DNA of 64,000 nt from Anaerolineaceae bacterium (GTDB lineage Bacteria; Chloroflexota; Anaerolineae; Anaerolineales; Anaerolineaceae), in assembly GCA_016841525.1 (NCBI GenBank), contig JAENYZ010000001.1, forward strand, positions 62,001 through 126,000, given 5' to 3'. The notes below the pieces were generated by a model that worked only from the letters and a program-made list of their open reading frames with translations, was not told the DNA's origin and did no database searches. The position numbers and the translations under genes are program-made. Positions 134 through 46,145 of this stretch are shown one piece after another. How positions within the stretch are numbered: position 1 is the first letter of the stretch; every line of letters begins with the position of its first letter.

Positions 134-155
134 GTAATAAATCTGAATCAAAAAA

Positions 156-189: not shown

Positions 190-199
190 TTATTTTGTT

Positions 200-1084: not shown

Positions 1085-1287
1085 TTCTACTTCCTAAGTT
1101 TATGATCCAGAACTGCTCAATTATACTCACTAAGGTATTGATGTATCCCAACAAAACATAATTTATACTGGTAAAAATCAAAAAAATGAGCCTTAAAGAG
1201 TTCACAAATAATACAGTGAATATTCCTCATCTCCACAAATCACAATTATAATAACTATTGTTTTGATCACCAATTACATAGGGAATA

Positions 1288-11482: not shown

Positions 11483-11582
11483 ATATACTCCTTTGATATA
11501 ATCAGAAGTCACATATCAATGATTGTATCAAATAATATGAATGTAAAAGAAAAAACACACAATAAGTAGGATTTGCTTACAT

Positions 11583-12677: not shown

Positions 12678-12683
12678 TGAAAT

Positions 12684-27691: not shown

Positions 27692-28675
27692 TCAAGCGTC
27701 AATACTTTGGCCTTTTTTGTAAGCACTCCAGGCTGCCATCCCAACAATGCCCGCCTTCGTTCCAAGCTTAGCATTTAAGATCTCTACTTTTTCAACAGGC
27801 ATCAGGAAGACACGCTCCTTCACCACTCTTTTGATCGGATCAAGCAGTAAATCTCCAGCTTTCCCAACGCCTCCGCCTATTACAACACGTTTTACGCCCA
27901 CAGATATCAAAATATTGGCGACGCCAATGCCCAAATACATCCCTGCCCGTTCCCAGACCCCCAGGGCAAATTCATCTCCCATATTCGCCGCTTTAGCCAC
28001 AACTTCCGATGTAAGCTTGTTTAAATCACCATCAATTAAATCAACTATTTTTGTAGCCCAACCTTGCCGAACACCCCTAGCTGCTTCTGCTGCAATTGCT
28101 GGTCCTGAAGCATAAACTTCGATACAGCCGTGATTACCGCAGCCGCAAATCGGACCGTTAATATCCACCGTTTGGTGACCAAGCTCGCCCGCAGCACCAT
28201 CAATCCCCAGAACCAATTGATTATTAACAACCAGTCCACCGCCTACGCCGGTGCCAATAGCAAAACAAGCCATTGAATCAACGCCTTTACCTGCGCCAAA
28301 TGCCCATTCACCATAGGTGATTGCCCGAACATCATTTAGCATTGAGATATCTAATCCTAAATGAGAAAACATCCTTTCACCAACGGGAATCCCACGCCAT
28401 TCTCCATACAGGTTGGGCAAAAACAAAGTTGTGTTGGTATCCAAATCAATCAAGCCAGGTGCGCTTATGCCAACACCACCAATATCGCCTTTCGAAAATC
28501 CACCTTCGACGATCATGTCCAAAATCAACTGCGACATCCGCTTAAGGACCGATTCTGGACCTTTCCTTGAAGAGGTTGAAATCGAGTTTGATACCAGAAC
28601 TTCGCCATTATCAACATCAACCAGCCCGGATTTAATATTTGTCCCCCCCAGATCGCATCCCACAAATACATTCAT
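27692..28675 (-). CDS. ROK-family sugar kinase (glucokinase-like)
   Basis: A 327-residue ROK kinase. DLGGTN (8-13) binds ATP phosphate, Asp115 (LNDV) is the catalytic base, and the ROK zinc site is complete: His167 plus Cys177, Cys179 and Cys184 in CGCGNHGC, followed by Glu186. Glucose is the commonest substrate for this subgroup; N-acetyl sugars or mannose are possible. It follows the Gfo/Idh gene and precedes manA, so it may make the phosphohexose that ManA converts. AAGGA lies upstream of the ATG. Confidence 0.9.
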   Translation of the reverse strand: MNVFVGCDLGGTNIKSGLVDVDNGEVLVSNSISTSSRKGPESVLKRMSQLILDMIVEGGFSKGDIGGVGISAPGLIDLDTNTTLFLPNLYGEWRGIPVGERMFSHLGLDISMLNDVRAITYGEWAFGAGKGVDSMACFAIGTGVGGGLVVNNQLVLGIDGAAGELGHQTVDINGPICGCGNHGCIEVYASGPAIAAEAARGVRQGWATKIVDLIDGDLNKLTSEVVAKAANMGDEFALGVWERAGMYLGIGVANILISVGVKRVVIGGGVGKAGDLLLDPIKRVVKERVFLMPVEKVEILNAKLGTKAGIVGMAAWSAYKKGQSIDA

Positions 28676-28748
28676 GTTAATATATCCTTCGAAATTCTAT
28701 TTGGCTAATGAAGATCAATAATTGTCTATTGATCCCAGCCTTCAAAAA

Positions 28749-29906
28749 TTAATAATTAACGTCAACCCATTTGTTTTCTTTTACGCTTTGCAATATCGCC
28801 TCATCAACCAGGATGGTATTGTGGCCATCTCTGAATGTTGGGAAATTCGGTGCTTGATTGAAATCTCCTTGTGCAATATAGCTGTAAAAAGCTGTTTGCA
28901 GCTGTTTAAAAGTGTCCGGGAAACCTTCCGCATGGCCACCAGGATAAGAAGCTGCCCACTGCGCTGACTTCGACATCAAAGAGGGGTCCTTGATCAGGTA
29001 CTGGTTCGGTTCAGGGCGATGACCGATCATCATCTGGTTTGGCATTTCAGAATCCCAAATCAAAGAGGAATCTGACCCATTAATTTCAAAAAACAGGCGA
29101 TTCTTGCGGCCGCTTGATACCTGGGAGACGCTCATCACACCACGCGTACCGCCCTCAAATTTGAAGAGAACTGCTGCATAATCTTCGGTTGTGATTTTCT
29201 TCTCCTCATATTGGACATCCATTTGCATCTTCCCACCAAAAGTATCAATCTTTTTCATTGGCTTTTTGCGGATCGGGAGAAATGTCTCAAAATCTGCAAA
29301 TACAGAGGTGATTTTCTTACCAGTAATAAAAGTTACCAAATCCATCCAGTGAGACCCAATGTCAGCAATTGCACGCAATTCTCCGCCATATTCTGGTTCT
29401 AAGCGCCAATTCCAATCTGTCTCTAATAATAACCAATCCTGCAAATAAGACCCTTGAATGATATAAATTCTTTCTCCCAGTTCTCCAGCCTCTATGCGAG
29501 CCCTGGCATCCTGGATCAGAGGATAAAACCGCAAGTTGAAGTTAACCGCATTAACCAGATTTTTTTCTTCAGCAATTTTCACAAGCAATTCGGATTCTTT
29601 CGCAGTCATCGCTAATGGCTTCTCACAGATGACATGCTTGCCGGCTTCAAGGGCACCTTTTGCATGCTCAAAATGCAAGAAATTTGGTGAGGCGACATGA
29701 ACAACATCAATATCAGGGTCAGCAACCAAATCCTTCCAGTCGCCATATGCCCTCGGAATTAATAGCCGCTCAGCAGCCTGTTCAGCTAATTCCTGGTTGC
29801 TTTCTGCAAGTGCCAGCACTTCAAACCCCTGCCGTCGAATAGCTTCCATATGTGCTGGACCAATAAAGCCTACGCCGATAACGCCTACCCTAAATTTTTT
29901 AGCCAT
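28749..29906 (-). CDS. Gfo/Idh/MocA-family oxidoreductase
   Basis: A 385-residue NAD(P)-dependent sugar or inositol dehydrogenase. The Rossmann motif [12 protein letters not shown], the conserved CEKPLAM, and the His/Asp of DIGSHWMDL are present. The substrate is not deducible; members with this length and the SWW-like C-terminal part ([14 protein letters not shown]) oxidise hydroxyl groups on hexoses, inositols or glycosides. It lies between two ROK kinases, so it belongs to the same catabolic module. AAGGA is seven bases upstream of the ATG. Confidence 0.9.
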
Positions 29907-30091
29907 TATTTATTCCTTTTGATCATTCTTTATTCTTATTGATTTTCTAATTACAAATTTTTTCATTTTTGATTGTAATTAAGATACCATAAATAAACCA
30001 GATTGAGATTCTTCGTTGTATTTATAAAGAAAATTTCCCAATTAACGCGCCAGCTAAACGAAACAATTGTTTTTGTTCCTCAGCTGTCGCA

Positions 30092-31048
30092 TTATGTAAT
30101 GTTAAATTTCTGACCTGCAAGCAGAATTGAGCCCACCAACACAATTGAGTCGCCTAACAAACATTGGCCTATCTGATAATTACCTTTGTTTATTAGGAAC
30201 GCAAATTTTTCTGTGTACTCCTGGATTGGATTAATTAATACGTCTCCCATATTGGAAACGCCTCCGCCAAAGGCTATTCTCTCCACGCTGGTCAAACACA
30301 GAACATTTGCCAGCCCCAATCCGATTGAACTTGCAATGTTATCAATCTCTTGTAATGCGAAACGATCCCCACATCTTGCTGCTTCTCCCAGATCCTTTGT
30401 GGTTATACGTGAACCTTTTGAAAAAAGTAAAGAGTCTGAAGGCACATAGCCAGGCTTGTTTAACCTTGTTTCAATAGACCAGCCAGAACATAGTTTTTCA
30501 ATCTCATCTACTGTTCCTGGAATTTCTGATGTCCAATCTGGAACAAGCGAATGCCCAAACTCACCTGCGCCAAACCCCTGCCCATCATAAAGAGTCCCAT
30601 TAAATACAAAACCGCCGCCAACGCCACTGCCAATATTGGTATAAAAGAAATGCTGACATCCCCTACCAAATCCTCTGCAATATTCACCCCATGCAGCAGC
30701 ATTCGAGTCATTTATCACCAGTGCTGGCAGTGAAAAAGTTTGCTGCAGCCAATCCTGGATTGGAAAATTCTGCCATCCCGAAATTTGGATGGATTTTAAT
30801 ACACACCCCTCATTTGAATTGATTGGACCGCCAAATCCACAGGCTAAAGCCTTTACTTTACCATAATTTCTTCCTGCCTTTTCAATGAACTCAGGAATAG
30901 ATTCTTGTAACCACTCCCGAATACCCTGCCCCCCCATCTCAGGATCAACCTTTTCCTGAAGGATTTCCAATATATCACCTGACGGTGTACCCAAACCTAA
31001 TTGCAATTTTGTGCCGCCAATTTCTATCCCCACAATCAAATCTCTCAT
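30092..31048 (-). CDS. ROK-family kinase lacking the zinc motif
   Basis: A 318-residue ROK-like protein with the ATP motif GIEIGGTKLQLGL, the catalytic Asp in INDSNAAAWGEY, and GSGVGGGFVF. The usual CxCGxxGCxE zinc block is missing: after GEFGHSL the sequence reads PDWTSEIPGTVDEIEKLCSG, with one Cys only. This resembles a subgroup without the zinc site; kinase activity is plausible but unproven. It is the first gene of the minus-strand sugar module with a strong AAGGAG. A palindrome overlaps its probable -10 box. Confidence 0.8.
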   Translation of the reverse strand: MRDLIVGIEIGGTKLQLGLGTPSGDILEILQEKVDPEMGGQGIREWLQESIPEFIEKAGRNYGKVKALACGFGGPINSNEGCVLKSIQISGWQNFPIQDWLQQTFSLPALVINDSNAAAWGEYCRGFGRGCQHFFYTNIGSGVGGGFVFNGTLYDGQGFGAGEFGHSLVPDWTSEIPGTVDEIEKLCSGWSIETRLNKPGYVPSDSLLFSKGSRITTKDLGEAARCGDRFALQEIDNIASSIGLGLANVLCLTSVERIAFGGGVSNMGDVLINPIQEYTEKFAFLINKGNYQIGQCLLGDSIVLVGSILLAGQKFNIT

Positions 31049-31367: not shown

Positions 31368-31396
31368 TTGACCCCTTGCGCATTATCTCGTATAAT
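31368..31396 (+). promoter_or_regulatory. Strong sigma-70 promoter of the sugar ABC operon
   Basis: TTGACC (31368-31373), a 17-bp spacer and a perfect TATAAT (31391-31396). The start site should be near 31403, some 450 nt before the ATG at 31854. Confidence 0.7.
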
Positions 31397-31853: not shown

Positions 31854-32867
31854 ATGAAGAAGTTTTTTGTTGTAATATTAGCCGCTTTGATGGTCTTCGG
31901 CCTTGCCGCATGTGCAACGGATGATGACACCAAAGTCATGGGCATTGTTATGCCCAGTGCCACCCATGGTTTCACAGGCGAGAGCATTCAGCACGCTGAA
32001 GCAGCAGCCAAAGCATTAGCCGCAGAACATGGTTTCGAATATTTATTCCTAACCGCTGGTGAAGCTTCTGCTCAGAACAACCATATCGACACCCTGCTGA
32101 ATGAACAGGTTGACGTTATCGTTCTGTGGCCGATGAACGGTGATGAATTACGTTCAGCTGCCCAAAAAGTTATGGATGCAGACATTCCCCTGGTTATTTA
32201 TGACCGCTTGATCACTGACTTCACCCCTACTGTTGAATTCATGGGTGACAATGTCAAAATCGGTGAGATGAGTGGTGAATATTTCAATGATTATTTCGCC
32301 GATGAAATTGCAGCAGGCGAAACAATTAACATTCTTGAGTTCAAGGGTGACCTCTCAACCGTACCGCAGCAGCGCACCGACGGCTTCCTTTCCACCGCCT
32401 CTGAGAATTTCAACATTCTGCAGTCCTTCACCACCGACTGGCAGCGCGATAAAGCAATGTCCCAAATGGAAACTTTCCTGACAACAGCCAGCCCCGAAGA
32501 AATTTCAAGTGTAAAAGCTGTCTTCACCCATGACGACGAAGTCGTTCTGGGCGTTTTGGATGCCATTGCAAACTACAACGGTGAAACAGAATTGGACATC
32601 CGCTTGGTCTCAGGTGTTGGTGCCCGACGTGAGAACATCGATACCTTCGCACCAGTCAAAGAACAATATGGCATCGACCAGGTGACCTATGCCTTCTCAC
32701 CTGCAATGATTCGCCAGGCTGTTGAATTAGGCGCTGACATTCTTGACGGTGAAACCCCCTCTGGTTTGATCCTCGGCGAAACCGTTGAGGTTGATAACGA
32801 GAATGGTGAAGAGTTCCGAAATCACGAAATCTATATCACCCGCTACAGCCTTGAAGGTGGCAACTAA
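31854..32867 (+). CDS. Sugar ABC transporter binding lipoprotein (ribose/xylose type)
   Basis: A 337-residue lipoprotein with lipobox GLAAC and a type I periplasmic-binding fold of the Peripla_BP_4 group (MPSATHGFTGESIQHAEAAA, then VDVIVLWPMNGDEL and PLVIYDRLI). It captures a monosaccharide or polyol outside the membrane for the ATPase and permease downstream. Base composition is higher in GC than its neighbours, as expected for a highly expressed gene. AGGAG lies eight bases upstream. A perfect 15-bp hairpin follows before the ATPase gene. The ligand is unknown; the downstream enzymes suggest something other than plain ribose. Confidence 0.9.
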   Translation: MKKFFVVILAALMVFGLAACATDDDTKVMGIVMPSATHGFTGESIQHAEAAAKALAAEHGFEYLFLTAGEASAQNNHIDTLLNEQVDVIVLWPMNGDELRSAAQKVMDADIPLVIYDRLITDFTPTVEFMGDNVKIGEMSGEYFNDYFADEIAAGETINILEFKGDLSTVPQQRTDGFLSTASENFNILQSFTTDWQRDKAMSQMETFLTTASPEEISSVKAVFTHDDEVVLGVLDAIANYNGETELDIRLVSGVGARRENIDTFAPVKEQYGIDQVTYAFSPAMIRQAVELGADILDGETPSGLILGETVEVDNENGEEFRNHEIYITRYSLEGGN

Positions 32868-32914
32868 ATTAGATCGGGATAATTTGGTACTTTTCAAATT
32901 GCCCTGAGGTAAAT

Positions 32915-32946
32915 CATTGGCTGAGCTCAAATGAGCTCAGCCAATG
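32915..32946 (+). promoter_or_regulatory. Intercistronic hairpin after the binding-protein gene
   Basis: A perfect 15-bp stem (32915-32929 with 32932-32946) around an AA centre, with no T run after it. Like the one after phnD, it probably protects the binding-protein message or lets only part of transcription through to the ATPase gene. Confidence 0.7.
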
Positions 32947-33096
32947 AAACAATTAAGTATGTGTTTTGAATAGATTATTTGGTGAAAATATTGGAATTGA
33001 CAGCGAAAGTAAATTTTAAATTCTTGTTAATCAAATAATATTTAAAGCAGATTTTTAGTTGAAATAGCAATACAGAGCAAAGGCAGTCTCAAACTT

Positions 33097-34605
33097 ATGC
33101 ATATTGAAATGAAAGGCATCACAAAGTATTTTGGTGCAGTGAAGGCACTCGAAAACGTGAACTTCACAATAAATTCGCATGAGATACACGGCTTGATGGG
33201 AGAAAACGGCGCCGGTAAATCTACATTAATGAACATTCTCGGTGGTGCAATCCAACCAACAGAGGGTGAGATTTACATCAATGGGGATTTGATCGAAAAG
33301 ATGACCATCAGCCTGGCGACAGAAAATGGCATCAGATTCATACATCAAGAATTAAACCTTGTAAACGACCTCAAAGTCTACGAAAATCTCTACCTGGGTG
33401 AGGAATTAACCAACAAAATCGGCATCCTCGATAAAAAGCAGATGATTGAAAACTCCAAAGACGTCCTTGAGAAGCTTAAACTGGATATTGACCCATCCAT
33501 GCCAGTATCTGAATTAGAAACATCCCGCAAGCAGCTTGTAGAAATTGCAAAAGCTCTGTTATTTGAGTCTGAACTCATTATTATGGATGAGCCAACAACA
33601 GCACTCACAAATACAGAAATTGAAATTCTATTCAACATCATGCGCAAACTTCGGGATGAAGGTATATCGATTATTTTTATATCTCATAAAATGCCAGAGT
33701 TGTTCAGCATTTGTGATAAATATACAGTTCTTCGGGATGGGCTTTTCATTGAATCGGGTAATTTCAAAGACATCGATGAACATATCGCCACAAGTCTTTT
33801 GGTTGGTGACCGAGTAATCGATACGGAATGGATCAAAGAAGACAAACGTGAAGAAGTTATTTTGTCTGCCCGATCATTAACCTGTGCTGGTTTTTTCAAC
33901 GATGTGAGTTTTGACTTGCACAAAGGGGAAGTACTTGCAATCACAGGCTTACATGGTGACGGGCGAAGTGAACTTTCTGAAGCATTATTCGGAGCTCGTC
34001 ACCTAACCTCAGGAAAGATTTTTCTCAAGGGCAATGAATTGAAATTGACCAATATCGGTAGTGTCATGAAATCAGGGATTGGCATGATCCCTCGAAATAG
34101 AAAAGAACGCTCAATCATCAAAGATCTCAGTGTTGTCAACAATTTTTCGGTTGCCTATTTTGTGGCAAAACATAAAAAAGCATTCATCAATGATAAAAAG
34201 GAAATTAAGCGATTTAACCGCAGCAGGCAAATCATCGACATCAAAACAGATGATCCTAACAACTATATAACATCACTCAGCGGTGGCAATCAGCAAAAGG
34301 TTATTGTTTCCCGATGGCTTGAGTTGGATTCAGATGTTTATATCATGGACAACCCAACCCAGGGAATTGATGTCGGCACAAAGTTTGAAATTTACAGGTT
34401 GATTAATGAGCTCTCGCAGCGTGGAAAAAGCTTGATTATTTTTAGCGCTGAGTTTCCTGAAATCCACCGTATCGCTGACCGATGCTTTGTGATGTACAAA
34501 GGTCATATCAATGCTGAATTAAATCGAGATCAATTAACAGAGCGAAACGTTATGTATTATGCAACTGGATCAAACACAGAGGGCATCAATGGAAAAATTT
34601 CTTAA
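33097..34605 (+). CDS. Sugar ABC transporter ATPase, RbsA/XylG type
   Basis: A 502-residue protein with two fused ATP-binding domains. The first has Walker A GENGAGKST and Walker B IIMDEPTTALT, but its signature reads VSELETSRKQ instead of LSxGxxQ. The second has a degenerate Walker A (GLHGDGRSE), as usual for RbsA, and an intact LSGGNQQK. This mix, one good half-site from each, is a common pattern in the family, though the loss in the first signature is more marked than usual. The ribosome site is weak. It overlaps the permease gene by 17 bases. Confidence 0.9.
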   Translation: MHIEMKGITKYFGAVKALENVNFTINSHEIHGLMGENGAGKSTLMNILGGAIQPTEGEIYINGDLIEKMTISLATENGIRFIHQELNLVNDLKVYENLYLGEELTNKIGILDKKQMIENSKDVLEKLKLDIDPSMPVSELETSRKQLVEIAKALLFESELIIMDEPTTALTNTEIEILFNIMRKLRDEGISIIFISHKMPELFSICDKYTVLRDGLFIESGNFKDIDEHIATSLLVGDRVIDTEWIKEDKREEVILSARSLTCAGFFNDVSFDLHKGEVLAITGLHGDGRSELSEALFGARHLTSGKIFLKGNELKLTNIGSVMKSGIGMIPRNRKERSIIKDLSVVNNFSVAYFVAKHKKAFINDKKEIKRFNRSRQIIDIKTDDPNNYITSLSGGNQQKVIVSRWLELDSDVYIMDNPTQGIDVGTKFEIYRLINELSQRGKSLIIFSAEFPEIHRIADRCFVMYKGHINAELNRDQLTERNVMYYATGSNTEGINGKIS

Positions 34606-35608
34606 AAATATTACCTGGGAAAATTTTAAAAAGTTCAACACGAAATATTCTTACATCGTCTCTTTTGTATTACTGCTTACGCTGGCAACGATCATCAATC
34701 CCCGATATTTTTCATATCGAAACTTATCAACGCTTGCCCTTCAAGCATCAATCAAAGGCATCATCACCTTGGGAATGTCGCTTGTAATCATTGCGGGCTT
34801 AATAGACCTTAGTGTTGGTTCAATGGTAGCACTGACTTCTGGCCTTGGCGTCGTTGTTTTGAATCAAACAGGCAATGTTTGGATCATGCTTGCCTTCTGT
34901 GCAGCATTTGGAACCGTTTTAGGTGTGATTAACGGCCTCTTGGTAACAAAGGGAAAAATTGCCCCATTTATTGTAACGCTGGCGACGATGAGTGCCTACC
35001 GCTCCATAATTGTCCAGCTTGGCCAGGGCGGCCCTTTCAATGTCGATTCGGAAATTCTTGATAGTTTCCGCATGATAGCAGCCGGCGAGGTCTTTGGAAT
35101 ACCAAATCTTGCGATTATCTTTATTGTTATTACCATCATCATTTCATTATTGATGTCCAAAACCAAGTTCGGCCGCTATGTATATGCCGTCGGATCAAAT
35201 GAACAAGCAGCCAGGCTCACAGGAATCAATGTTGATCTTGTCAAAACGCTTACCTTCACAATAACAGGTCTGCTTTCAGGTATTACTGCATTCTTACTCG
35301 CTTCTCGACTGACGTCGATAACTGCGCCAAACGCAGGCCAATCCTTTGAACTCGACGCAATTGCTGCCGTAGCAATTGGCGGCATAGCAATGACCGGTGG
35401 ACGCGGTGTGATAGCAGGCTCCTTCCTCGGCGCAATAATGCTGCAAATGATTGAAGGTATTCTGATTATTGCAAAAATCCCACCCTTCTTAAACGGACTG
35501 GTGAAAGGTGTCATCATCATCTTCACCGTACTGCTCCAGCACCGCAGCGTTTTGAAGCGAAAGAAACGGCTAAAAACTGAAGCCACCAAAGCTGCTGCCA
35601 CAGAGTAA
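34589..35608 (+). CDS. Sugar ABC transporter permease, RbsC type
   Basis: A 339-residue permease with eight to ten membrane segments. The RbsC signature is clear: GLIDLSVGSMVALTSGL near the N-terminus, and the EAA-equivalent loop YAVGSNEQAARLTGINV, followed by AIAAVAIGGIAMTGGRG. I chose the ATG at 34589 with GAGG six bases upstream; an in-frame ATG at 34559 lies inside the ATPase gene and has no ribosome site. Completes the importer begun at 31854. Confidence 0.9.
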   Translation: MEKFLKNITWENFKKFNTKYSYIVSFVLLLTLATIINPRYFSYRNLSTLALQASIKGIITLGMSLVIIAGLIDLSVGSMVALTSGLGVVVLNQTGNVWIMLAFCAAFGTVLGVINGLLVTKGKIAPFIVTLATMSAYRSIIVQLGQGGPFNVDSEILDSFRMIAAGEVFGIPNLAIIFIVITIIISLLMSKTKFGRYVYAVGSNEQAARLTGINVDLVKTLTFTITGLLSGITAFLLASRLTSITAPNAGQSFELDAIAAVAIGGIAMTGGRGVIAGSFLGAIMLQMIEGILIIAKIPPFLNGLVKGVIIIFTVLLQHRSVLKRKKRLKTEATKAAATE

Positions 35609-35777
35609 ATCTGAAAACGATTGTTAATTTAAATAATCTTAGATAAATTATTTATATAAAATTTATTTCCAACATCATGTTGATAAAAATCACCATGTTT
35701 ATTGGTATCAATTTTTACAAAGAGATAATACACATAATTTACCAATATAAACAATCCAATAATAAGAGGAGATTCTT

Positions 35778-36806
35778 ATGACAATCCGACTTGGTGTAAT
35801 TGGCGCTGGTAAAATCGTGCGCGTTCGACATCTTCCTGAGGCAAAACAAAACCCTAATACAGAAATAATTGCTGTTTGCGATGCCGTTGAATCGCGTGCG
35901 CAAGAAATGGCTGAAGAATATCAATGCAAATCCTTTACAGATTATAAAGTAATGTTGAAAGACCCGGAAATTGACGCAGTTGTGGTTGCTGCTACAAATG
36001 CCACCCATGCTGTGATGACCATTGATGCACTCAATGCTGGTAAGCATGTCTTATGTGAAAAACCCATGTCAATCACGCTGGATGATGCACAAAAGATGAT
36101 CGATGCAGCAGAACGGAATAATAAACAACTGATGATCGGGCATAATCAGCGTCTCGAAATTGGGCACCAAAAAGCAAGGGAAATCATCCAATCTGGGAAG
36201 TTAGGCAAGGTTTTAACCTTCAGCACGACATTTGGACACCCTGGGTCTGAGGATTGGGCAGTCGAGGGGAAGAAAACCTGGTTTTACCGAAAAGCCGTCG
36301 CTGGATTAGGTGTATTAGGAGACCTCGCGATCCACAAATTGGATCTTGTTAGATGGCTGCTTGATGATGATTACATCCAGGTCAGTGCATTTATGGATAC
36401 GCTTAGCAAGACTTACACCGATGGCAGTTTGATTGATTTGGAGGACAATGCTTTGTGCCTGTTAAAAACTAAGAAAGGCGCATTAGGCACCCTGTCTGCT
36501 AGCTGGTCATATGCAAAAGAGAAAAATTCAACCACCATTTACTGCCAAAATGGTGTCTTAGAAATCTATACCGATCCTGAATTTCAGATCATCATTAATT
36601 ACAACCACCAGCAAGGCGAGTTTCACAAGTTGGGCAAAAAATCAACGAATGTTGAACAGCTTAATTCTGGGGTAATGGATGCCTTCATCGATGCATTGGT
36701 CAACAATAAGGATGTGCCGATTGCAGGGATTGAAGGTTACAAGGCTCTTGAAGCTGTCCTGGCATGTCAGGAATCGGCGAAAACGGGTCGAGTTGTAAAT
36801 TTATAA
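35778..36806 (+). CDS. Gfo/Idh/MocA-family oxidoreductase
   Basis: A 342-residue NAD(P)-dependent dehydrogenase: GVIGAGKIVRVRHLPE (Rossmann), CEKPMS, and GDLAIHKLDLVRWLL containing the conserved His/Asp. The short C-terminal domain fits the glucose-fructose oxidoreductase or inositol dehydrogenase groups. It begins the enzyme part of the plus-strand sugar module, 169 bp after the permease and with its own GAGGAG. It ends exactly one codon before the next gene starts. It probably oxidises the imported sugar or a derivative; which one is unknown. Confidence 0.9.
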   Translation: MTIRLGVIGAGKIVRVRHLPEAKQNPNTEIIAVCDAVESRAQEMAEEYQCKSFTDYKVMLKDPEIDAVVVAATNATHAVMTIDALNAGKHVLCEKPMSITLDDAQKMIDAAERNNKQLMIGHNQRLEIGHQKAREIIQSGKLGKVLTFSTTFGHPGSEDWAVEGKKTWFYRKAVAGLGVLGDLAIHKLDLVRWLLDDDYIQVSAFMDTLSKTYTDGSLIDLEDNALCLLKTKKGALGTLSASWSYAKEKNSTTIYCQNGVLEIYTDPEFQIIINYNHQQGEFHKLGKKSTNVEQLNSGVMDAFIDALVNNKDVPIAGIEGYKALEAVLACQESAKTGRVVNL

Positions 36807-37664
36807 GTGTCAAACTCATTTATGAACCAAAAAATAAACAAAACTTCACAAAACCTACCCTTTGAATTAATCAATCCTAGCATTCCACGTGGGAGGATAA
36901 AGTTTTCAATTTTTGATTTCGACGGCACAATCTCACTCATCCGTGAGGGTTGGCAGCAAATCATGATCCCAATGATGGTTGAGATTCTAATGCAAACACC
37001 GCGCCATGAAAGCCGGGAAGAGGTCAGCCAGGTCGTTAAAACATTCGTGGCAAATACAACAGGGAAACAAACTATTTACCAGATGATCCACCTTTCAGAA
37101 GAAATAGCAAAACGTGGTGGTCAGCCAAAAGACCCACTGGTTTATAAAGAACACTACCACAACCTTTTAATGGAACGTATTGAAAACCGAATCAAAGGTT
37201 TGAGTGATGGGAAAATCAAACCCGGAGAGATGGTTGTACCTGGATCATTACAGGCGCTTGAGCTTCTAAGGCGAGATGGTATTAAATGCTTTCTGGCTTC
37301 AGGAACCGATGAAAAATATGTTTTCCATGAGGCTGAGCTTCTCGGAATAACGGACTATTTCGAAGGCATTCACGGTGCACTTGATGACTATGAAAACTTT
37401 TCAAAAAGAATGGTTATTCAAAAAATAATCCGGGAAAATCATCTCAGCGGACCAGAATTGATTGCTTTTGGAGATGGCTTTGTTGAAATCGAAGATATCA
37501 AAGCCGCTGGCGGTATAGCCATAGGCCTTGCGACCAATGAATCTGAACGCAGCGGTATTGATCACTGGAAGCAAAATCGATTAATTGCCTCAGGTGCTGA
37601 CATAATTATGCCTGACTTTACTGAATTTGCTTCACTCTGGCAATATCTTATGGAGAAGGAATAA
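36807..37664 (+). CDS. HAD-superfamily phosphatase
   Basis: A 285-residue HAD hydrolase. Motif I FDFDGTIS (about residues 36-43) gives the nucleophile Asp, motif II lies in FLASGTDEKYV, and motif IV in AFGDGFVEIEDIKAAGG. A helical cap is inserted between I and II. The start is either GTG 36807, directly after the upstream stop codon, or ATG 36822. Given its neighbours (HldE-like kinase, GmhA-like isomerase), it could take the role GmhB has in heptose synthesis, removing a phosphate from a bisphosphate, but it is not a close GmhB homologue. Confidence 0.85.
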   Translation: MSNSFMNQKINKTSQNLPFELINPSIPRGRIKFSIFDFDGTISLIREGWQQIMIPMMVEILMQTPRHESREEVSQVVKTFVANTTGKQTIYQMIHLSEEIAKRGGQPKDPLVYKEHYHNLLMERIENRIKGLSDGKIKPGEMVVPGSLQALELLRRDGIKCFLASGTDEKYVFHEAELLGITDYFEGIHGALDDYENFSKRMVIQKIIRENHLSGPELIAFGDGFVEIEDIKAAGGIAIGLATNESERSGIDHWKQNRLIASGADIIMPDFTEFASLWQYLMEKE

Positions 37665-37668
37665 AACC

Positions 37669-38637
37669 ATGCCCTATCCAATATTTGATAGAAGTAGATT
37701 ACACCTCAAACCACTATCACAGCGAATCCATGATTTAGACCGCACAGTCATTTTGGAGCTCGAGGATCCGATCCCGCATTATGAAAACCCAAACCTTAAC
37801 ATACTTGCGGAAAGGATAATCGCTGCAAAAGCAAGAGGCGCTACAGTCATGATCATGATGGGTGCGCATGTGATACGCAGCGGCGTCAATAATTTTTTGA
37901 TTGATCTGATGGAGAAAGGTTTCATCTCCCTGATCGGAACAAATGGCGCATGCACTATTCATGACATGGAATTTGCCATGATTGGGAAAACAACCGAAAG
38001 CGTTGCCCGATATATAAAAGAAGGTCAATTTGGATTATGGAATGAATCTGGTCGAGTTAACGATGCGGCTGATATTGCAAAACAAGAAGGATTGGGGCTG
38101 GGGGAAGCAGTCGGAAAGATGATCGTTGAAAATCCTGACGAATTCCCTTACGGCAAATCAAGTCTTTTTGCAGCAGCTTACAAGCTTGGCATACCGATAA
38201 CCGTCCATGTAGGCATTGGACAGGACATTGTACATGAACATCCAAATTTTGACGGTGCCGCTGTAGGAGAATCAAGCTACAGAGATTTCTTGACCCTGGC
38301 ACATTTTGTGGAAAACCTTGAAGGCGGTGTTATGCTTAATATCGGCACAGCCGTCATTGGACCCGAAGTTTATCTTAAAGCTTTATCTATGGCTCGAAAT
38401 GTTGCTCATCAGGAAAATCGTGAGATCAAGAACTTTACAACCGCTGTTTTTGATATGGTGGATCTCGGGGATGATCCCCACACCGAAGCGGAAAAGTCAA
38501 ATGCGATCTATTATTTCCGCCCTTACAAAACTGTCCTTGTTCGTACAGTCGCTGATGGCGGCGAAAGTTACTATGTTCGCGGTCTGCATCGTGAAACAAT
38601 AACCAATCTTCACCGGCTGATTATGCAAAATTCATAA
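37669..38637 (+). CDS. Deoxyhypusine-synthase-like protein of a heptose-type cluster
   Basis: A 322-residue soluble protein. The Rossmann-like stretches ARGATVMIMMGAHVIRSG, GFISLIGTNGACTIHD and LGIPITVHVGIGQDIVH resemble the deoxyhypusine synthase fold, but the lysine that carries the butylamine in that enzyme is not evident and bacteria rarely have eIF5A. I recall similar proteins annotated beside heptose genes in other bacteria, with no proven activity. The start at 37669 is set by AAGGA eight bases upstream, within the operon and 4 bases after the HAD stop codon. An NAD-dependent sugar reaction is the working guess. Confidence 0.7.
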   Translation: MPYPIFDRSRLHLKPLSQRIHDLDRTVILELEDPIPHYENPNLNILAERIIAAKARGATVMIMMGAHVIRSGVNNFLIDLMEKGFISLIGTNGACTIHDMEFAMIGKTTESVARYIKEGQFGLWNESGRVNDAADIAKQEGLGLGEAVGKMIVENPDEFPYGKSSLFAAAYKLGIPITVHVGIGQDIVHEHPNFDGAAVGESSYRDFLTLAHFVENLEGGVMLNIGTAVIGPEVYLKALSMARNVAHQENREIKNFTTAVFDMVDLGDDPHTEAEKSNAIYYFRPYKTVLVRTVADGGESYYVRGLHRETITNLHRLIMQNS

Positions 38638-38651
38638 GGCTTAGTCAAAAA

Positions 38652-39722
38652 ATGATAAAAAATGAGCGTTTTGAAGAAATCTTAGGAAACTTTTCCAAAA
38701 CAAAAGTTGCGGTACTGGGAGATTTTTTCCTCGATCTTTACATCCAGTTAGACCGATCGCTGTCCGAATTTTCCCTTGAAACACACAAAGAAGCATTCCA
38801 GGCGATTGGTTTACGCGGTCAACCTGGTGCAGCCGGTGTCGTCACCAACAACTTGAGCGCATTGGGAGCGCAAACAGCTGCCATCAGTTTTATCGGCCAG
38901 GATGGCAACGGCTTCACCCTAAAAAAAGCGCTCGAAGCCAGAGGCGTAAACACAGAATATCTAATCGAAACTGATGAGCGGGTGACACCGACCTATACAA
39001 AACCGATGATGCTTGAGCTTGACGAGCAAAATATTGAGTTAAATCGTATTGACATCATCAACCGATCAGTTGGACCGTATGAAATTCAACAGGAATTGGC
39101 AGATAAAGTCCGGCAGGCATTGACAATTTATGAAGGCATCCTGGTTGTGGAACAGGTCAGCAATGATGGCTTTGGGACCATGTCTCCCCTGCTGCGAAGT
39201 CTTCTCAATGAATTGGGTAAACAAAATCCCGAAAAAATTATCATGGTTGACTCGAGGCACTTTGCTTCAGAATATCAAAATATATCTGTGAAAATGAATT
39301 TGTCCGAAGCCGTTAATGCTGCATTTTATCTTGATTCACAGTTAGATGACATTGATGAATCGGATTACATGCCCGCATCCGCACTGTGCTCAAATGCATT
39401 TTGGGAAGCCAATCAAAAGCCCGCCTTTATTACTCTGGGTGAAAAAGGGATTAGCGGAAATTATGAAGATCGCTTTTTCCTTTATCCCGCCTATAAAATA
39501 GATGGACCAATCGATATCGTCGGTGCTGGCGATTCCGTCCTGGCTGGCATTGGTTTAGCCATGTGCGCAGGAGCAACCCCAGCAGAGGCGGCTTTTATTG
39601 GTAACCTGGTAGGTTCAATTACCGTTCAACAAATTGGGACGACAGGGATAGCTACCCAGGATGCGCTACGTGGGCGTTATCATGACTACATCAAACAACA
39701 AAAGGAACAAAAACTAACATGA
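38652..39722 (+). CDS. PfkB-family kinase, HldE kinase-domain-like
   Basis: A 356-residue ribokinase-fold kinase. VLGDFFLDLYI, RGQPGAAGVVTNNLSALGA, VDSRHFASEYQN and the ATP/catalytic motif VGAGDSVLAGIG follow the pattern of the N-terminal domain of HldE (heptose 7-phosphate kinase). The cytidylyl/adenylyltransferase half of HldE is absent and no separate hldE-C gene is in the window. It would phosphorylate a sugar phosphate at C1 or a related position. It overlaps the GmhA-like gene by four bases (ATGA), so the two are translated together. Confidence 0.85.
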   Translation: MIKNERFEEILGNFSKTKVAVLGDFFLDLYIQLDRSLSEFSLETHKEAFQAIGLRGQPGAAGVVTNNLSALGAQTAAISFIGQDGNGFTLKKALEARGVNTEYLIETDERVTPTYTKPMMLELDEQNIELNRIDIINRSVGPYEIQQELADKVRQALTIYEGILVVEQVSNDGFGTMSPLLRSLLNELGKQNPEKIIMVDSRHFASEYQNISVKMNLSEAVNAAFYLDSQLDDIDESDYMPASALCSNAFWEANQKPAFITLGEKGISGNYEDRFFLYPAYKIDGPIDIVGAGDSVLAGIGLAMCAGATPAEAAFIGNLVGSITVQQIGTTGIATQDALRGRYHDYIKQQKEQKLT

Positions 39723-40279
39723 AAGATCCAAAACAAACTATTGGCCAATATTTTACAGCCATGAAAGCTGTGATTGATTCATTTCCATCCAATGATTTGA
39801 TCCGCTTTTTAGAAGTTTTAGAAGATGCCCGCGAAAACGAGAAAACTATTTTTGTCTGCGGCAATGGCGGCAGCTGGGCAACAGCATCCCACATGGTATG
39901 TGACTTTGGCAAAAATACCAGGATACCCGGGCAGAAACGCATGATCGTCCTTGGGTTGGGAGATAATATTCCTTCGCTAACAGCTTATGCAAATGACGAA
40001 GGCTATGATCGCGTGTTTGCCGAACCTGCCATCAGCTTGATGAAAAAAGATGATGTTCTGATTGCCATTAGCGGCAGTGGAAACTCACCCAACGTATTAC
40101 GGGCGGTAGATGTTGCAAACAATGTCGGCGGAACAACTTTGGGCTTAACCGGTTTTCAAGGTGGAAAACTGAAAGGGCTGGTTGATCATTGTCTCGTGGT
40201 ACCATCCGACAGCATGGAAATGATTGAAGATTTTCATATGATCGTCGACCATATTTTAACGATTTGCCTTAGAGGATGA
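39719..40279 (+). CDS. SIS-domain sugar isomerase, GmhA-like
   Basis: A 186-residue SIS protein. VCGNGGSWATASHMVCDFG and AISGSGNSPNVLRAVDVA are the phosphosugar-binding motifs of GmhA, which converts sedoheptulose 7-phosphate to D-glycero-D-manno-heptose 7-phosphate. It differs from GmhA in the segment after GNGGS (WATASHM for HxDAxHxAEE), so substrate may differ. Last gene of the plus-strand sugar module, closed by a terminator. Paired with the HldE-like kinase by translational coupling. Confidence 0.85.
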   Translation: MKDPKQTIGQYFTAMKAVIDSFPSNDLIRFLEVLEDARENEKTIFVCGNGGSWATASHMVCDFGKNTRIPGQKRMIVLGLGDNIPSLTAYANDEGYDRVFAEPAISLMKKDDVLIAISGSGNSPNVLRAVDVANNVGGTTLGLTGFQGGKLKGLVDHCLVVPSDSMEMIEDFHMIVDHILTICLRG

Positions 40280-40304: not shown

Positions 40305-40330
40305 AAGCCCTGGCAATTCAGGGCTTGTTT
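40305..40330. terminator. Bidirectional terminator after the heptose-like module
   Basis: An 8-bp GC-rich stem (40305-40312 with 40319-40326) with a 6-nt loop, followed by GTTTT on the plus strand and a T-rich stretch on the minus strand. It lies between convergent operons. Confidence 0.75.
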
Positions 40331-40359: not shown

Positions 40360-41694
40360 TTATATTTGTCCCCTGACAACGACTGCATTAGGCCACCGTT
40401 GGAGTGCTTTCGGAAGCAAGGATGAACGAACCACGACACAGGCGACCTCGAACTGCCCTTGATCAAGCCTTTCCAGACCAGCCAACAAACCCTTATTTCG
40501 CAAGAATTCCAGAGGTCCCAGCTCATCAATGATCAGCAGATCGCTTTCTGCGCTGTTCTGAAGCCTCTGGTTGCCCCAAACTAACACATCTGGATCAAAT
40601 ACCCATCTTGGCGTTGAAATTTCGCCTTGTCCCTCCTCACGCAACCTTGCTAAACGCTTTCGTTCACCACTTACTAAATCAACAACCTCGATCCCTGTTT
40701 TTCTCCCACTCTCAAAAATACCTGGTGAAAGGATTCCTTCGACAGAGTATCCTGATGCTGCCGCTTCTTTGATCATTTGTTTACACCAGCTAGTTTTTCC
40801 GCTGCCGCTCAAACCAGTTACTAAAATTATTTGAGGTTTTTCTTTGCGATTTTGGAAAACCATGTTCAAGAAACTGTCCTCTTCATGCAGTGAATCAGGT
40901 TTAACTGCTAGGGGTTGTCGCGGTAATACTGCCCTGGCCTTTTTAACGCCATTTTCGTTCTGGTAAATCACTTCCGTCTGGATGCCATATACTGCTGACA
41001 TTAAAGGCTCTGTCAACACCTCCTGGGGTTCACCTACCTCAGTTACCCATCCCCCACTCAACAATAATACATTGTCAGCATAAGCAAGGGCGTCGTTGGG
41101 TTCATGAGAAGAGATGGTGAAAGATAAACCTTGCTGTCCCAATTGGTGGACAATCTCCATGACTCTGTGCTGGTTGCTGAGATCAAGATGGGCTGTTGGT
41201 TCATCCATCAATAATATGGGACATTTCTGAGCTAAACCCCTGGCAATCAAGACCAATTGCTGCTCCCCACCGCTGACCTCCGTATAAGGTCGATCTTGCA
41301 AATCAATTAAACCGACCTGTTCAAGTGCTTCTTCAACGATTAAGTGATCTTTTTCGGTTGGCGATCCCAACCAGGGTAAATGCGGTGCACGCCCCATCAT
41401 CACCATTTGTCTGACCGTATATGCAAATGCAGGGGTATGCATCTGCGGAATCAGGCCAATCCTTTTTGCACGTTCTGCAGCTGAAAAATCTTCTATCCGT
41501 GTACCATCTAGATACACGCGCCCAGTATTTGGTTTAAGCAGTCCCGCAAGGCATGAAAGCAATGTGGTCTTTCCGCAGCCGTTCTTTCCCAAAATATATA
41601 AAGTTTCCCCTGCATTTAATTGGAGAGAAACATCATGTAATACTGTTTTCCCGGGTAGATAAGCATAGCTAATATTGGAGGCCTCTAAAAGCAT
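40360..41694 (-). CDS. FecE/BtuD-type ABC ATPase fused to a THEP1-like NTPase
   Basis: A 444-residue fusion. Residues 1-240 are an iron/cobalamin-type ABC ATPase: Walker A GKNGCGKT (36-43), signature VSGGEQQ (140-146), Walker B ending MDEP (163-166), H-loop His197. Residues about 285-444 form a second P-loop domain: GLSGSGKTS (294-302) and DLLIIDELGPLEF (385-397), the pattern of the THEP1/NTPase_1 nucleoside-triphosphatase family. Between them is a linker of about 40 residues. Reading frame is continuous. The start ATG 41694 lies 2 bases after the permease stop codon; an in-frame GTG at 41703 overlaps that stop. The role of the extra NTPase is unknown. Confidence 0.9.
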   Translation of the reverse strand: MLLEASNISYAYLPGKTVLHDVSLQLNAGETLYILGKNGCGKTTLLSCLAGLLKPNTGRVYLDGTRIEDFSAAERAKRIGLIPQMHTPAFAYTVRQMVMMGRAPHLPWLGSPTEKDHLIVEEALEQVGLIDLQDRPYTEVSGGEQQLVLIARGLAQKCPILLMDEPTAHLDLSNQHRVMEIVHQLGQQGLSFTISSHEPNDALAYADNVLLLSGGWVTEVGEPQEVLTEPLMSAVYGIQTEVIYQNENGVKKARAVLPRQPLAVKPDSLHEEDSFLNMVFQNRKEKPQIILVTGLSGSGKTSWCKQMIKEAAASGYSVEGILSPGIFESGRKTGIEVVDLVSGERKRLARLREEGQGEISTPRWVFDPDVLVWGNQRLQNSAESDLLIIDELGPLEFLRNKGLLAGLERLDQGQFEVACVVVRSSLLPKALQRWPNAVVVRGQI

Positions 41695-41696
41695 GA

Positions 41697-42749
41697 TTAC
41701 CACCCTGTCCTGCTTCTTCTCATCAGTAGAACCAATATTGGCACACCAATCAAACCAGTTAATACGCCTAAAGGGATTTCGCCAGGCAGCAGCGTACGTG
41801 CCAGATCATCAATGATCATCAAGAAAGCAGCACCAAAGCTGATCGATACCGGTAACAATCGTTTGTGCTCTGGTCCAACGATCAAACGCCCTGCGTGCGG
41901 AATGACCAGGCCAACCCATCCAATGACACCGCTCACTGAAACCGCCACTGCGGTCATCAAAGTCGAAAACAGGATAATGCCAAGCTTCATCCTTGTTGGA
42001 TCGACACCCAAAGCGGAAGCTTCAGCATCCCCAAGCGAAAGGATATTCAAGCGCCAACGAATGGTCCATAAATAAATCAAACCAAATATTGTCAGGATGA
42101 TCAAAGGCATCAAGTTTTGCCAGGTGATGCCGGTCAAACTTCCTAATAGCCAAAAGGTGATTGCCGGCAGGCTGTCCAATGGATCAGCTGCATACTTCAA
42201 CAAAGAGGTCAATGAGCCAAAAAATGAACCTACAAGGATCCCCATCAAGGTCAAAATGAGTAAAGGGCTTGTTCTGTACAATCGACTGCCAAAGAAAGAT
42301 AAAAATACAGCCACCAATCCAAAAACAAAAGCAGATACCTGTACCAGCCATGGATCACCAAGAAACAGCAGTGCTAAAGCAGCGCCAAAACCTGCTCCCG
42401 ATGTTACACCAAGGATATTTGAATCCACAAGGGGATTCTTAAAAATCGCTTGAAAAGCCGTCCCTGTTGCACCATAACTGGCACCTATCAATAAAGCCGC
42501 CAGAATGCGGGGAAGTCGAATATGAAAAATTAACTGTTTTGCAATATCTGGAATACCCTCTGCGATGGATGGGAATATCGGAGAAAGTATCACTTTTAAT
42601 ACATCAATTGGACCGATTTGATAACGTCCTAATGTAAGCGACAGGATTAATAAACCCAAAGGTAGTCCAATGAGAATTAGAAATAAGTAGGCTTTTTGTA
42701 TTGAGTGTTTCTCTTTAATTGATGCTGCAGATTTTTGCAAGCTCTTCAT
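41697..42749 (-). CDS. FecCD/BtuC-family ABC permease
   Basis: A 350-residue permease with about ten membrane segments. FecCD motifs are clear: ALLIGASYGATGTAFQAIFKNPLVD, LGVTSGAGFGAALALLF, SGVIGWVGLVIPHAGRLIVG and GEIPLGVLTGLIGVPI. Family members import siderophores, haem, cobalamin or molybdate/tungstate. Its start lies 35 bases inside the end of the binding-protein gene, suggesting coupling. It follows the PadR and binding-protein genes and precedes the ATPase fusion. Confidence 0.9.
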   Translation of the reverse strand: MKSLQKSAASIKEKHSIQKAYLFLILIGLPLGLLILSLTLGRYQIGPIDVLKVILSPIFPSIAEGIPDIAKQLIFHIRLPRILAALLIGASYGATGTAFQAIFKNPLVDSNILGVTSGAGFGAALALLFLGDPWLVQVSAFVFGLVAVFLSFFGSRLYRTSPLLILTLMGILVGSFFGSLTSLLKYAADPLDSLPAITFWLLGSLTGITWQNLMPLIILTIFGLIYLWTIRWRLNILSLGDAEASALGVDPTRMKLGIILFSTLMTAVAVSVSGVIGWVGLVIPHAGRLIVGPEHKRLLPVSISFGAAFLMIIDDLARTLLPGEIPLGVLTGLIGVPILVLLMRRSRTGW

Positions 42750-45030: not shown

Positions 45031-45251
45031 TTAAGATTAAGTTGCTATACGAACCAAACCATAAAAATTACAAAAACACAAAAATTTCCCTCTGATATAG
45101 GATAGCTTTACAATTCTAGTCCTTTCAAATTCTCTCAAAATATAATGAAAATTTATCCCAAAATGGAAATAGAGAAAACTGAAACTATCAACCGATTGAA
45201 TTATAATATTTAGTTAATTCTGTCATGATGCATAAATTGAAAGGAATCCAC

Positions 45252-46145
45252 ATGGAAAAGATTGCGTATGGTGGTTGGGAAAATTGTTATCAATTAGCCA
45301 ACAATCAAATAGAACTGGTTGTTACAGCTGATGTTGGTCCCCGCATCATTCGATTTGGATTTATTGGTGGTGAAAATATGTTCCACGAATATCCACACCA
45401 AGTTGGGGTCACCTCATCTGATGAGTGGCTCAACTTTGGCGGGCACAGACTCTGGCATGCACCTGAATCTGTAGAGAGAACTTATTATCCTGATCTTGAG
45501 TCTGTTCATGTCCAGGAAATTGAAAATGGTCTCATTCTTACACAAAAGCCAGAACCCACCACGGGAATCCAAAAACAAATCCAGATTGTTCTTTCTTCAA
45601 ACAAACCTGAAGTCCGGCTGACACATCACCTGATAAATCATAATCTATGGGCTATAGAAACAGCGCCCTGGTCAATTTCTGTGATGTCTCCAGGTGGTAC
45701 CGCCATCCTTCCCTTACCACCGCGCGGCCCACACCCTGATTTCTTATTACCGACAAGCACCATTTCCATTTGGCCTTATACAAACTTTAAGGACTCACGC
45801 CTCCGATTAGGTAAGCATTTTATCATGGTAAAGCAAGATTCTCGTAGTACTTCACCTCAAAAAATTGGTATCTTCACTTCAGAAGGATGGGCTGCCTACG
45901 CAAATTATGACACTTATTTTGTCAAACAGGTACCAATACAATTTGATGGTATTTATCCTGATATGGGCACGAATTTTGAGGTTTTCACAGATAATGAAAT
46001 GCTGGAATTGGAAGCTTTAGGTCCTTTCGAATCCATCCCACCAAAAGGAAAAATCGACCACATGGAACACTGGACCTTAGTCCCCAATGTATCAGAACCA
46101 AAATCTGAAGCGGATGTCTTTGAAGCCACCTCACACCTTTTATAA
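45252..46145 (+). CDS. DUF4380-family protein
   Basis: A 297-residue soluble protein resembling DUF4380, whose fold is like galactose mutarotase. NQIELVVTADVGPRIIRFGF near the start and NFGGHRLWHAPE (about residues 65-76) are the family landmarks; His and Glu there could serve as catalytic residues on a sugar. The activity is not established. The start at 45252 is supported by AAGGA six bases upstream; in-frame ATGs at 45225 and 45228 lie before that site. It is transcribed after the small-RNA candidate and ends at a convergent terminator. Confidence 0.8.
   Translation: MEKIAYGGWENCYQLANNQIELVVTADVGPRIIRFGFIGGENMFHEYPHQVGVTSSDEWLNFGGHRLWHAPESVERTYYPDLESVHVQEIENGLILTQKPEPTTGIQKQIQIVLSSNKPEVRLTHHLINHNLWAIETAPWSISVMSPGGTAILPLPPRGPHPDFLLPTSTISIWPYTNFKDSRLRLGKHFIMVKQDSRSTSPQKIGIFTSEGWAAYANYDTYFVKQVPIQFDGIYPDMGTNFEVFTDNEMLELEALGPFESIPPKGKIDHMEHWTLVPNVSEPKSEADVFEATSHLL

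Follow-up and report, generated by a model that had tools for sequence, protein, structure and literature searches.

An operon that joins a ribose-type sugar importer to heptose-type enzymes and a GSU2086-family protein in an Anaerolineaceae bacterium

We analysed a window of 64,000 nucleotides from an Anaerolineaceae bacterium (contig JAENYZ010000001.1, forward-strand positions 62,001 to 126,000; GCA_016841525.1, an assembly of 3.2 Mb in nine contigs, 97.3% complete), in which an operon at 31854-40279 places the genes of a sugar importer ahead of a set of sugar-phosphate enzymes. An original prediction made from the letters of this window had named eight plus-strand genes and their families, and all eight open reading frames (ORFs) are present, with Pfam and NCBIfam agreeing on the families. 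The first three encode a ribose-type periplasmic sugar-binding protein (SBP; 31854..32867; PF13407, 124 bits), a double ATP-binding cassette (ABC) ATPase of the RbsA type (33097..34605; Pfam and NCBIfam) and a BPD_transp_2 permease (34589..35608, in an ORF open from 34559; PF02653, 141.6 bits). They are followed by a Gfo/Idh/MocA dehydrogenase (35778..36806; PF01408, 118 bits), a HAD phosphatase or phosphomutase of the beta-phosphoglucomutase-like group (36807..37664; PF13419 (HAD_2), 43 bits), a GSU2086-family protein with the predicted fold of deoxyhypusine synthase (DHS) and ornithine cyclodeaminase, for which a step using nicotinamide adenine dinucleotide (NAD) is predicted (37669..38637; NF052581), a PfkB kinase akin to the kinase domain of HldE, without a nucleotidyltransferase domain (38652..39722; closest model TIGR02198, rfaE_dom_I) and a SIS-domain isomerase, a GmhA relative with a variant metal site (39719..40279; closest model TIGR00441, gmhA). 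The enzyme genes are closely spaced, with gaps of 0 bases between the Gfo/Idh and HAD genes, 4 between the HAD and GSU2086 genes and 14 between the GSU2086 and kinase genes, and the kinase and isomerase genes share 4 bases (39719-39722). The HAD gene does not overlap the gene for the DHS-like protein, since the likeliest start of the latter is the ATG at 37669, where seven aligned relatives and the window protein all begin with Met; Met stands in this column in 58 of 86 alignment rows. In the importer part, the ABC and permease genes overlap by 17 bases if the permease starts at 34589, and wider gaps separate the SBP from the ABC gene (229 bases) and the permease from the Gfo/Idh gene (169 bases, AT-rich). 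A promoter-like site precedes the importer genes on the plus strand (31368-31396; TTGACC-17-TATAAT, 11/12 matches) and a terminator-like hairpin follows the isomerase gene (40305-40326, plus strand); both are consensus matches only, of kinds about as frequent in the window as in shuffled sequence (26 versus 22.0 and 9 versus 8.6, respectively). The terminator scan found no plus-strand terminator-like site between the permease and Gfo/Idh genes. Because the enzyme order is found again in distant phyla, the gene set is more than a chance neighbourhood.

The central gene of the enzyme block encodes a protein that scored 381.1 bits against NF052581 (curated cut-off 250) and hence belongs to the GSU2086 family, which has this accession but no named function and is uncharacterised. 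It gave no match to the Pfam deoxyhypusine synthase family (PF01916, E <=0.001), nor did any protein of the genome, on which grounds a true deoxyhypusine synthase was rejected; the relative at locus L112 reached 21.7 bits against the PF01916 cut-off of 27. The C-terminal Rossmann domain of ArgZ was matched at 29 bits (cut-off 27). An AlphaFold (AF2) model built from 86 aligned sequences had a mean predicted local distance difference test score (pLDDT) of 95.3 and a predicted template modelling score of 0.93. Among the matches listed after a second scoring of Foldseek's own matches, a procedure that leaves room for other families, the model was closest to the ornithine-cyclodeaminase domains of ArgZ/AgrE (Z 19.2-19.3 over 208-220 residues, root-mean-square deviation (rmsd) 3.1-3.6), followed by deoxyhypusine synthases (Z up to 18.5 for 7cmc, 248 residues, rmsd 3.6); one of the matched structures of ornithine-cyclodeaminase fold, 6lrg, was solved with NAD+. 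A GSU2086 profile compared with 12 cyclodeaminase-like proteins of the same phylum gave a probability of 95.5%, over about 100 residues only. As far as these models indicate, the DHS label applies to the fold alone, and the original view of the protein as an unknown step stood. Characterised members of this fold such as DHS, homospermidine synthase and ornithine cyclodeaminase oxidise amines with NAD. Sixteen polar residues were invariant in 87 of 87 GSU2086 sequences (H67, H98, D99, E101, E110, E126, H180, D186, H189, E233, K237, R243, N244, D262, R284 and R292), and K237 and K287, candidates for the catalytic lysine of DHS, are conserved in the aligned sequences of the window's subfamily. 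Sequences of the window type differ at the otherwise near-constant positions Y115, W124, N131, Y204, T288 and T293 from a second type, which is represented by two sequences only, one from locus L033 in the host's phylum and one from a fusion protein at locus L043 (Ornatilinea apprima).

The kinase and the isomerase are relatives of heptose enzymes that fall far below the scores of those enzymes. The kinase scored 120.8 bits against TIGR02198, where the HldE cut-off is 345, and it has a signature common to kinase-only relatives. The isomerase scored 107.6 bits against TIGR00441, whose GmhA cut-off of 209.45 is a strict one here, as none of 39 module-bearing genomes reaches it and eight have a match of at least 190 bits. 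The metal ligands of GmhA, which we take to be His64, Glu68, Gln175 and His183 (Burkholderia numbering), align with H, D, E and H in the window isomerase, which does not have the canonical ligand set. In an alignment of 31 SIS sequences, H-D/E-H-H was found at these positions in 24; the exceptions were H-D/E-Q-H (one), Q-D/E-F-H with Q for the first His (three), H-E/Q-H-H (two, L033 and L072) and the L043 fusion isomerase, which in this single alignment is readable at the second metal site only, as Q. The isomerase at locus L044 has Q at the helper His. Since residues of the GSU2086 protein and of the isomerase shift together, a different substrate may be suspected; at L072 a canonical-type GmhA (HE/Q) stands beside a window-type GSU2086 protein, so the isomerase type need not follow the GSU2086 type. 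The HAD enzyme carries the DxDGT motif found in 49 of 50 sequences, its own included, and D37, D39, S165, T167, K200 and D223 are invariant in a 49-sequence alignment. Its AF2 model (pLDDT 94.2) was closest, among the matches listed, to Rv3400, a Bacteroides pyrophosphatase, mannitol-1-phosphate phosphatase and beta-phosphoglucomutases (Z 18.8-22.3), and its activity may be that of a phosphatase or of a mutase. For the operon's Gfo/Idh dehydrogenase the best NCBIfam model was iolG (181 bits, cut-off 355) and the closest solved structure glucose-fructose oxidoreductase.

The gene company of the GSU2086 family was surveyed across phyla. Among 84,980 species genomes scanned, at least 543 encoded relatives turned up, and the 80 best were retained; with nine further genome loci, two plasmid loci and the window they make 92 loci, or 91 after removal of a duplicate (L036 of L120). 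The 80 best matches were drawn by an alignment led by the window protein, which biases the counts towards the window type, and neighbours were labelled with profiles seeded with proteins of the window, L031 and L032, so that the counts cover these gene families. In the 45 loci whose flanks reach 6 kb in each direction (46 of the 91 had shorter flanks), same-strand neighbours within 6 kb of GSU2086 were PfkB (37), HAD (27), SIS (20), Gfo/Idh (7), HldE-C-type nucleotidyltransferase (6) and TIM-barrel isomerase (4). Gene fusions tie the module enzymes together: at L043 a GSU2086-SIS fused ORF (3834-5534, minus strand) runs with importer genes of the CUT1 class and a ROK kinase gene and faces a second HAD-GSU2086-PfkB set on the opposite strand, and SIS-HAD fused ORFs stand beside GSU2086 and PfkB genes in two Oscillospiraceae (L080, 8058-9830; L106, 8579-10000). 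A nickel-insertion gene (PF01969, LarC-type) follows the HAD-GSU2086-PfkB set of L043 at 11964-13250 (plus strand). An HldE-C-type nucleotidyltransferase lies within 10 kb in 11 of the 91 loci, all of one clade (98% SH-aLRT support and one change in a quick tree of 89 rows); the DHS-like protein is therefore usually without HldE-C, as had been expected, with this clade as the exception. In the clade's member L032 the nucleotidyltransferase-kinase scores far below the HldE cut-offs (93 versus 181.5 and 114 versus 345 bits). Radical-SAM/SPASM genes and, in some cases, split transketolases accompany the clade at L032, L067, L076, L112 and neighbouring loci, company that suggests the synthesis of an unusual higher-carbon sugar. 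The 15 neighbour clusters present in at least four loci include SDR, radical-SAM, sugar epimerase, transketolase, UDP-sugar dehydrogenase, altronate-dehydratase-type and kinase families; no nucleotidyltransferase, aminotransferase or polyamine gene was found among their 15 representatives, three of which had no Pfam match. Ten neighbour ORFs near L055, L093, L103, L106 and L044 included no glycoside hydrolase or aldolase that would name the sugar; six of the ten were without a Pfam match, and not all need be genuine genes.

The importer is of the ribose type, with a Peripla_BP_4 SBP, a double ATPase and a BPD_transp_2 permease by Pfam and NCBIfam, and the solved structure closest to the SBP is 4joq, a ribose-transporter binding protein (92.8 bits). 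Two Bacillota loci keep the order of importer and enzymes. L093 reads SBP-ABC-permease-Gfo-TIM-HAD-GSU-PfkB-SIS, which is the window order with one TIM-barrel isomerase gene added, and L055 has the window order with three additional genes, a TIM-barrel isomerase and two ROK genes, one of them on the opposite strand. Their importers are related to that of the window (ABC 51-52%, permease 48-49% identical; SBP 43% in L055 and 39% in L093), as are their Gfo/Idh proteins (40-41%), which upholds the predicted tie of the enzyme set to uptake. At L051, in Anaerolineae, an SBP 75% identical to that of the window lies two genes upstream of a HAD-GSU-PfkB-TIM-mutarotase run, on the opposite strand. Other loci have other importers or none that could be recognised: L043 and L044 carry CUT1-class importer genes close to the module, the plasmid locus L031, nearest relative of all, combines an SBP of no relation to the window's with a distantly related ABC importer, and many loci of Planctomycetota and Acidobacteriota showed no recognisable importer component close to the enzyme core. 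The expectation that the DHS-like protein always accompanies the importer did not hold, as a ribose-type permease was found within 6 kb of GSU2086 in only 4 of 45 loci and, at a distance of up to 10 kb and with short-flanked loci included, in 5 of 91 (the window, L031, L055, L093 and L106). From the related importers in the same order in Bacillota and the differing importer in L031 we conclude that the GSU2086 family is genuinely and repeatedly coupled to sugar uptake, through a link that can be exchanged, in a minority of its members only.

The host genome was searched for the HldE-type nucleotidyltransferase and for GmhB, with HldD (TIGR02197), HddA, PF00483-type (HddC-like) transferases and glycosyltransferases lying outside the genome-wide searches. 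Neither the HldE nucleotidyltransferase domain (TIGR02199) nor GmhB (TIGR00213, E <=0.001) was matched in the host genome; PF01467 has two members genome-wide, which by eye we take to be CoaD and NadD. The operon isomerase is the host's sole full-length match to TIGR00441 and the operon kinase its best match to TIGR02198. The predicted absence of a nucleotidyltransferase accordingly holds for the HldE type. Among the 39 module-bearing genomes, TIGR02199 was matched in 30 (18 over the cut-off) and TIGR00213 in 22 (three over the cut-off), and TIGR02198 was exceeded away from the module in 11, six of them with a kinase-only type. Several organisms thus keep a normal-looking HldE kinase in addition to the module, which is therefore not the heptose pathway of lipopolysaccharide (LPS). 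The low family scores and the absence of HldE-type nucleotidyltransferase and GmhB matches led us to reject ordinary heptose synthesis for LPS or an S-layer; a GDP-type heptose route through other enzyme families may still be compatible with the host searches made. That an ADP- or GDP-heptose pathway for a surface glycan lies here, as the HldE and GmhA models closest to the kinase and isomerase would suggest, is very improbable given these findings and the altered metal-site pattern of the isomerase. The proposal that heptose-type enzymes are reused is borne out in so far as relatives of heptose enzymes occur without an HldE-type nucleotidyltransferase; the gene set behind it was incomplete, as a minus-strand block at 27692-31048 had been left out.

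These results suggest that the operon encodes an uptake-linked sugar-phosphate pathway, made of an importer and a conserved enzyme core, whose product enters central metabolism, a reading to which we assign a probability of about 0.5. In the pathway that we infer, including its NAD use, substrate class and the order and direction of its reactions, the ribose-type importer would take up an uncommon monosaccharide or polyol, which the Gfo/Idh dehydrogenase would oxidise and ROK kinases, from a divergent operon, would phosphorylate. The GmhA-like SIS isomerase would then shift the carbonyl between ketose and aldose phosphate, and the GSU2086 protein, with NAD+ bound as in its fold relatives, could carry out a redox-neutral change such as epimerisation through transient oxidation. 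The HldE-like PfkB kinase would add a phosphate and the HAD enzyme remove or move one; because the host has no HldE-type nucleotidyltransferase, the product would most likely join central metabolism and not become a nucleotide sugar. In Geobacter sulfurreducens, insertions in hldE, GSU2086 and gmhA are reported to hurt electrode growth alike (log2 -3.1, -3.2 and -3.7), and the locus numbers place GSU2086 between the other two (PMC5585712). Since the defects are alike, this family member probably works with GmhA and HldE there. Several observations weigh against the reading of an uptake-linked pathway. A HAD phosphatase beside a kinase fits sugar 1-phosphate biosynthesis at least as well as breakdown, for which reason we hold the probability to the value given, and among the operon's genes we identified neither an aldolase nor another exit enzyme. 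The rarity of the permease near GSU2086 and the differing importer of L031 indicate that the importer may be an add-on. Eight of the 45 loci have no recognised PfkB gene within 6 kb (L048, L049, L054, L056, L078, L081, L088 and L099), and in the clade with the nucleotidyltransferase-kinase several loci lie near glycan-type genes. Finally, the Geobacter relative, as judged through a stand-in for its own sequence, appears to belong to another subfamily, and polar effects are possible in the insertion data. A catabolic role of the operon is plausible.

The kinase and phosphatase, which together follow the logic of heptose 1-phosphate, also lie at the heart of a biosynthetic explanation, in which the SIS, GSU2086, PfkB and HAD enzymes start from a ketose phosphate and make an aldose 1-phosphate destined for a glycan or cofactor, its activation falls to a nucleotidyltransferase that belongs to a different family and is encoded elsewhere in the genome, and the importer serves salvage. 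Many relatives without an importer would fit this, as would the clade in which a nucleotidyltransferase-kinase gene stands beside GSU2086, mostly with SIS too, and near the radical-SAM and transketolase genes described above. We consider it rather unlikely, since the host's PF01467 proteins are only CoaD- and NadD-like (the genome-wide search did not extend to PF00483-type transferases), the neighbour-cluster representatives include no nucleotidyltransferase, and the importer order is common to two phyla. Unlikely as well is that the importer and the enzyme block are separate adjoining units, with HAD-GSU-PfkB-SIS forming a general sugar-phosphate side pathway or repair system. Such a division would be placed at the AT-rich gap between the permease and Gfo/Idh genes and would explain the loci of Planctomycetota and Acidobacteriota and the different importer of L031; it sits poorly with the order kept in L055 and L093 together with related importers and Gfo/Idh genes, with the 75%-identical SBP near the core in L051, and with the lack of a plus-strand terminator-like site in the gap itself.

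Amine chemistry would be the role of the GSU2086 protein if it acted like its characterised fold relatives on an amino sugar or polyamine, with the other enzymes processing the sugar part. The profile match to the cyclodeaminase-like family is in keeping with this, as are genes at L044 of the trimethylamine-methyltransferase (1-1158, plus strand) and adenosine-deaminase (7922-9016, plus strand) families near the module, which could hint at an amine-bearing or nucleoside substrate. By sequence, however, a single segment aligns, the recurring neighbours are sugar-phosphate enzymes and no aminotransferase or polyamine gene is among the 15 representatives, so we regard this role as improbable. Returning to the uptake-linked pathway, we would venture, tentatively and at less than even odds, a broader proposal: that the GSU2086 proteins, as a branch of the DHS fold devoted to sugar phosphates, hold NAD and epimerise, cyclise or otherwise rearrange such a compound without net redox change, in an undescribed pathway with the variant isomerase, the HldE-like kinase and the HAD enzyme, and that this pathway imports and breaks down a sugar in some phyla and serves nucleotide-sugar synthesis in one clade.

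The conserved block is larger than the eight genes and runs from about 27692, on the minus strand, to 40279, as two ROK and two Gfo/Idh genes keep their order and direction on L031, a plasmid cluster (CP069395) of a cold-seep member of the Chloroflexota. On the minus strand of the window lie a ROK sugar kinase gene (27692..28675; 74.5% identical to the same-order gene of L031), a second Gfo/Idh/MocA dehydrogenase gene (28749..29906; 78% identical to L031; best NCBIfam model levoglucosan dehydrogenase, 199 bits, cut-off 650) and a further ROK sugar kinase gene that diverges from the importer (30092..31048; 62% identical to L031, 42% to L093). A mutarotase resembling the TTE1925 family (45225..46145, plus strand; NF052227, 318 bits, cut-off 550) is a possible outlying member, 43% identical to the L051 gene directly behind HAD-GSU-PfkB-TIM; Pfam DUF4380 had no match in the host genome. 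Ten of 400 genomes sampled from the host phylum, the window's own included, have a GSU2086 protein over the cut-off, and none of the two same-genus and six same-family genomes listed has one. This distribution, together with the close relative on a plasmid, points to horizontal spread. Two further features of the window were noted by eye: an ORF at 40360-41703 (minus strand) for an iron/B12-type ABC ATPase with an added C-terminal P-loop NTPase-like stretch, and paired MinD/Mrp-like ATPases with inserted ferredoxin-type cysteine motifs at 23374-25157 (plus strand).

What is new is a sugar operon built around an uncharacterised enzyme. The GSU2086 family, without an assigned reaction, spans Chloroflexota, Bacillota, Planctomycetota, Acidobacteriota, Armatimonadota, Deltaproteobacteria and others, and its importer-linked version offers a direct way in, through a binding protein that can reveal the sugar. 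Solving one such operon would give a reaction to a branch of a fold known for amine chemistry, help to explain a gene that Geobacter needs for normal electrode growth, and set right the "heptose" names given automatically to isomerases and kinases that do not resemble heptose enzymes.

Set beside known systems, the module shares features with several and differs from each. With the DHS and ornithine cyclodeaminase (ArgZ/AgrE) proteins the GSU2086 protein shares the fold (Z 15.4-19.3 over 208-268 residues among the matches listed) and a conserved segment, G.HVI..G...N.A..HD.E, and it differs in having no Pfam DS match, 9-16% identity and sugar-phosphate gene neighbours. The ADP-heptose pathway (GmhA, HldE, GmhB) has homologues of the window's isomerase and kinase, whereas in the window these score far under the equivalog cut-offs, the metal-site residues are variant, the HldE-type nucleotidyltransferase is missing and the HAD enzyme is related to beta-phosphoglucomutases and sugar phosphatases where a GmhB match would be expected. 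A search of the open-access literature turned up one paper that names GSU2086 and, by title and abstract start, no such module or homologous cluster assigned to a known sugar, an outcome that leaves the original prediction in place on this point. A locus of Rhodobacteriaceae bin08 predicted to serve mannoheptulose utilisation likewise pairs sugar kinases with an ABC importer, a heptose being the proposed substrate; the part of that report available to us names ROK, adenylylsulfate-kinase-family and tagatose-bisphosphate-aldolase-family proteins and no GSU2086, SIS or PfkB protein (PMC5507952). In the plasmid cluster L031, eight genes (ROK, Gfo, ROK, Gfo, HAD, GSU, PfkB, SIS) are orthologous to those of the window and keep their order, with 61-82% identity, 68% for the operon Gfo/Idh protein; the cluster is annotated without function. 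It differs in its importer, which is sited between the Gfo and HAD genes, and in extra DeoC, TIM-barrel, Gfo and GntR genes; a DeoC-like ORF of the window (10790-11512), 20 kb away, is only 28% identical to its DeoC aldolase. The Geobacter hldE-GSU2086-gmhA set shares with the window the GSU2086 family (NF052581), whose cut-off the window protein exceeds, and, by its locus numbers, a GmhA/HldE-type pair next to the family member. As a stand-in for this type we used L033, where a GmhA-like protein (187 bits, cut-off 209) and a kinase (365 bits, cut-off 345) occur with an exopolysaccharide transferase. The window GSU2086 protein is 40% identical to that of L033 and differs from it at W124, N131, Y204 and T288, and unlike the Geobacter system the window combines a non-canonical isomerase and kinase with an importer in place of a nucleotidyltransferase.

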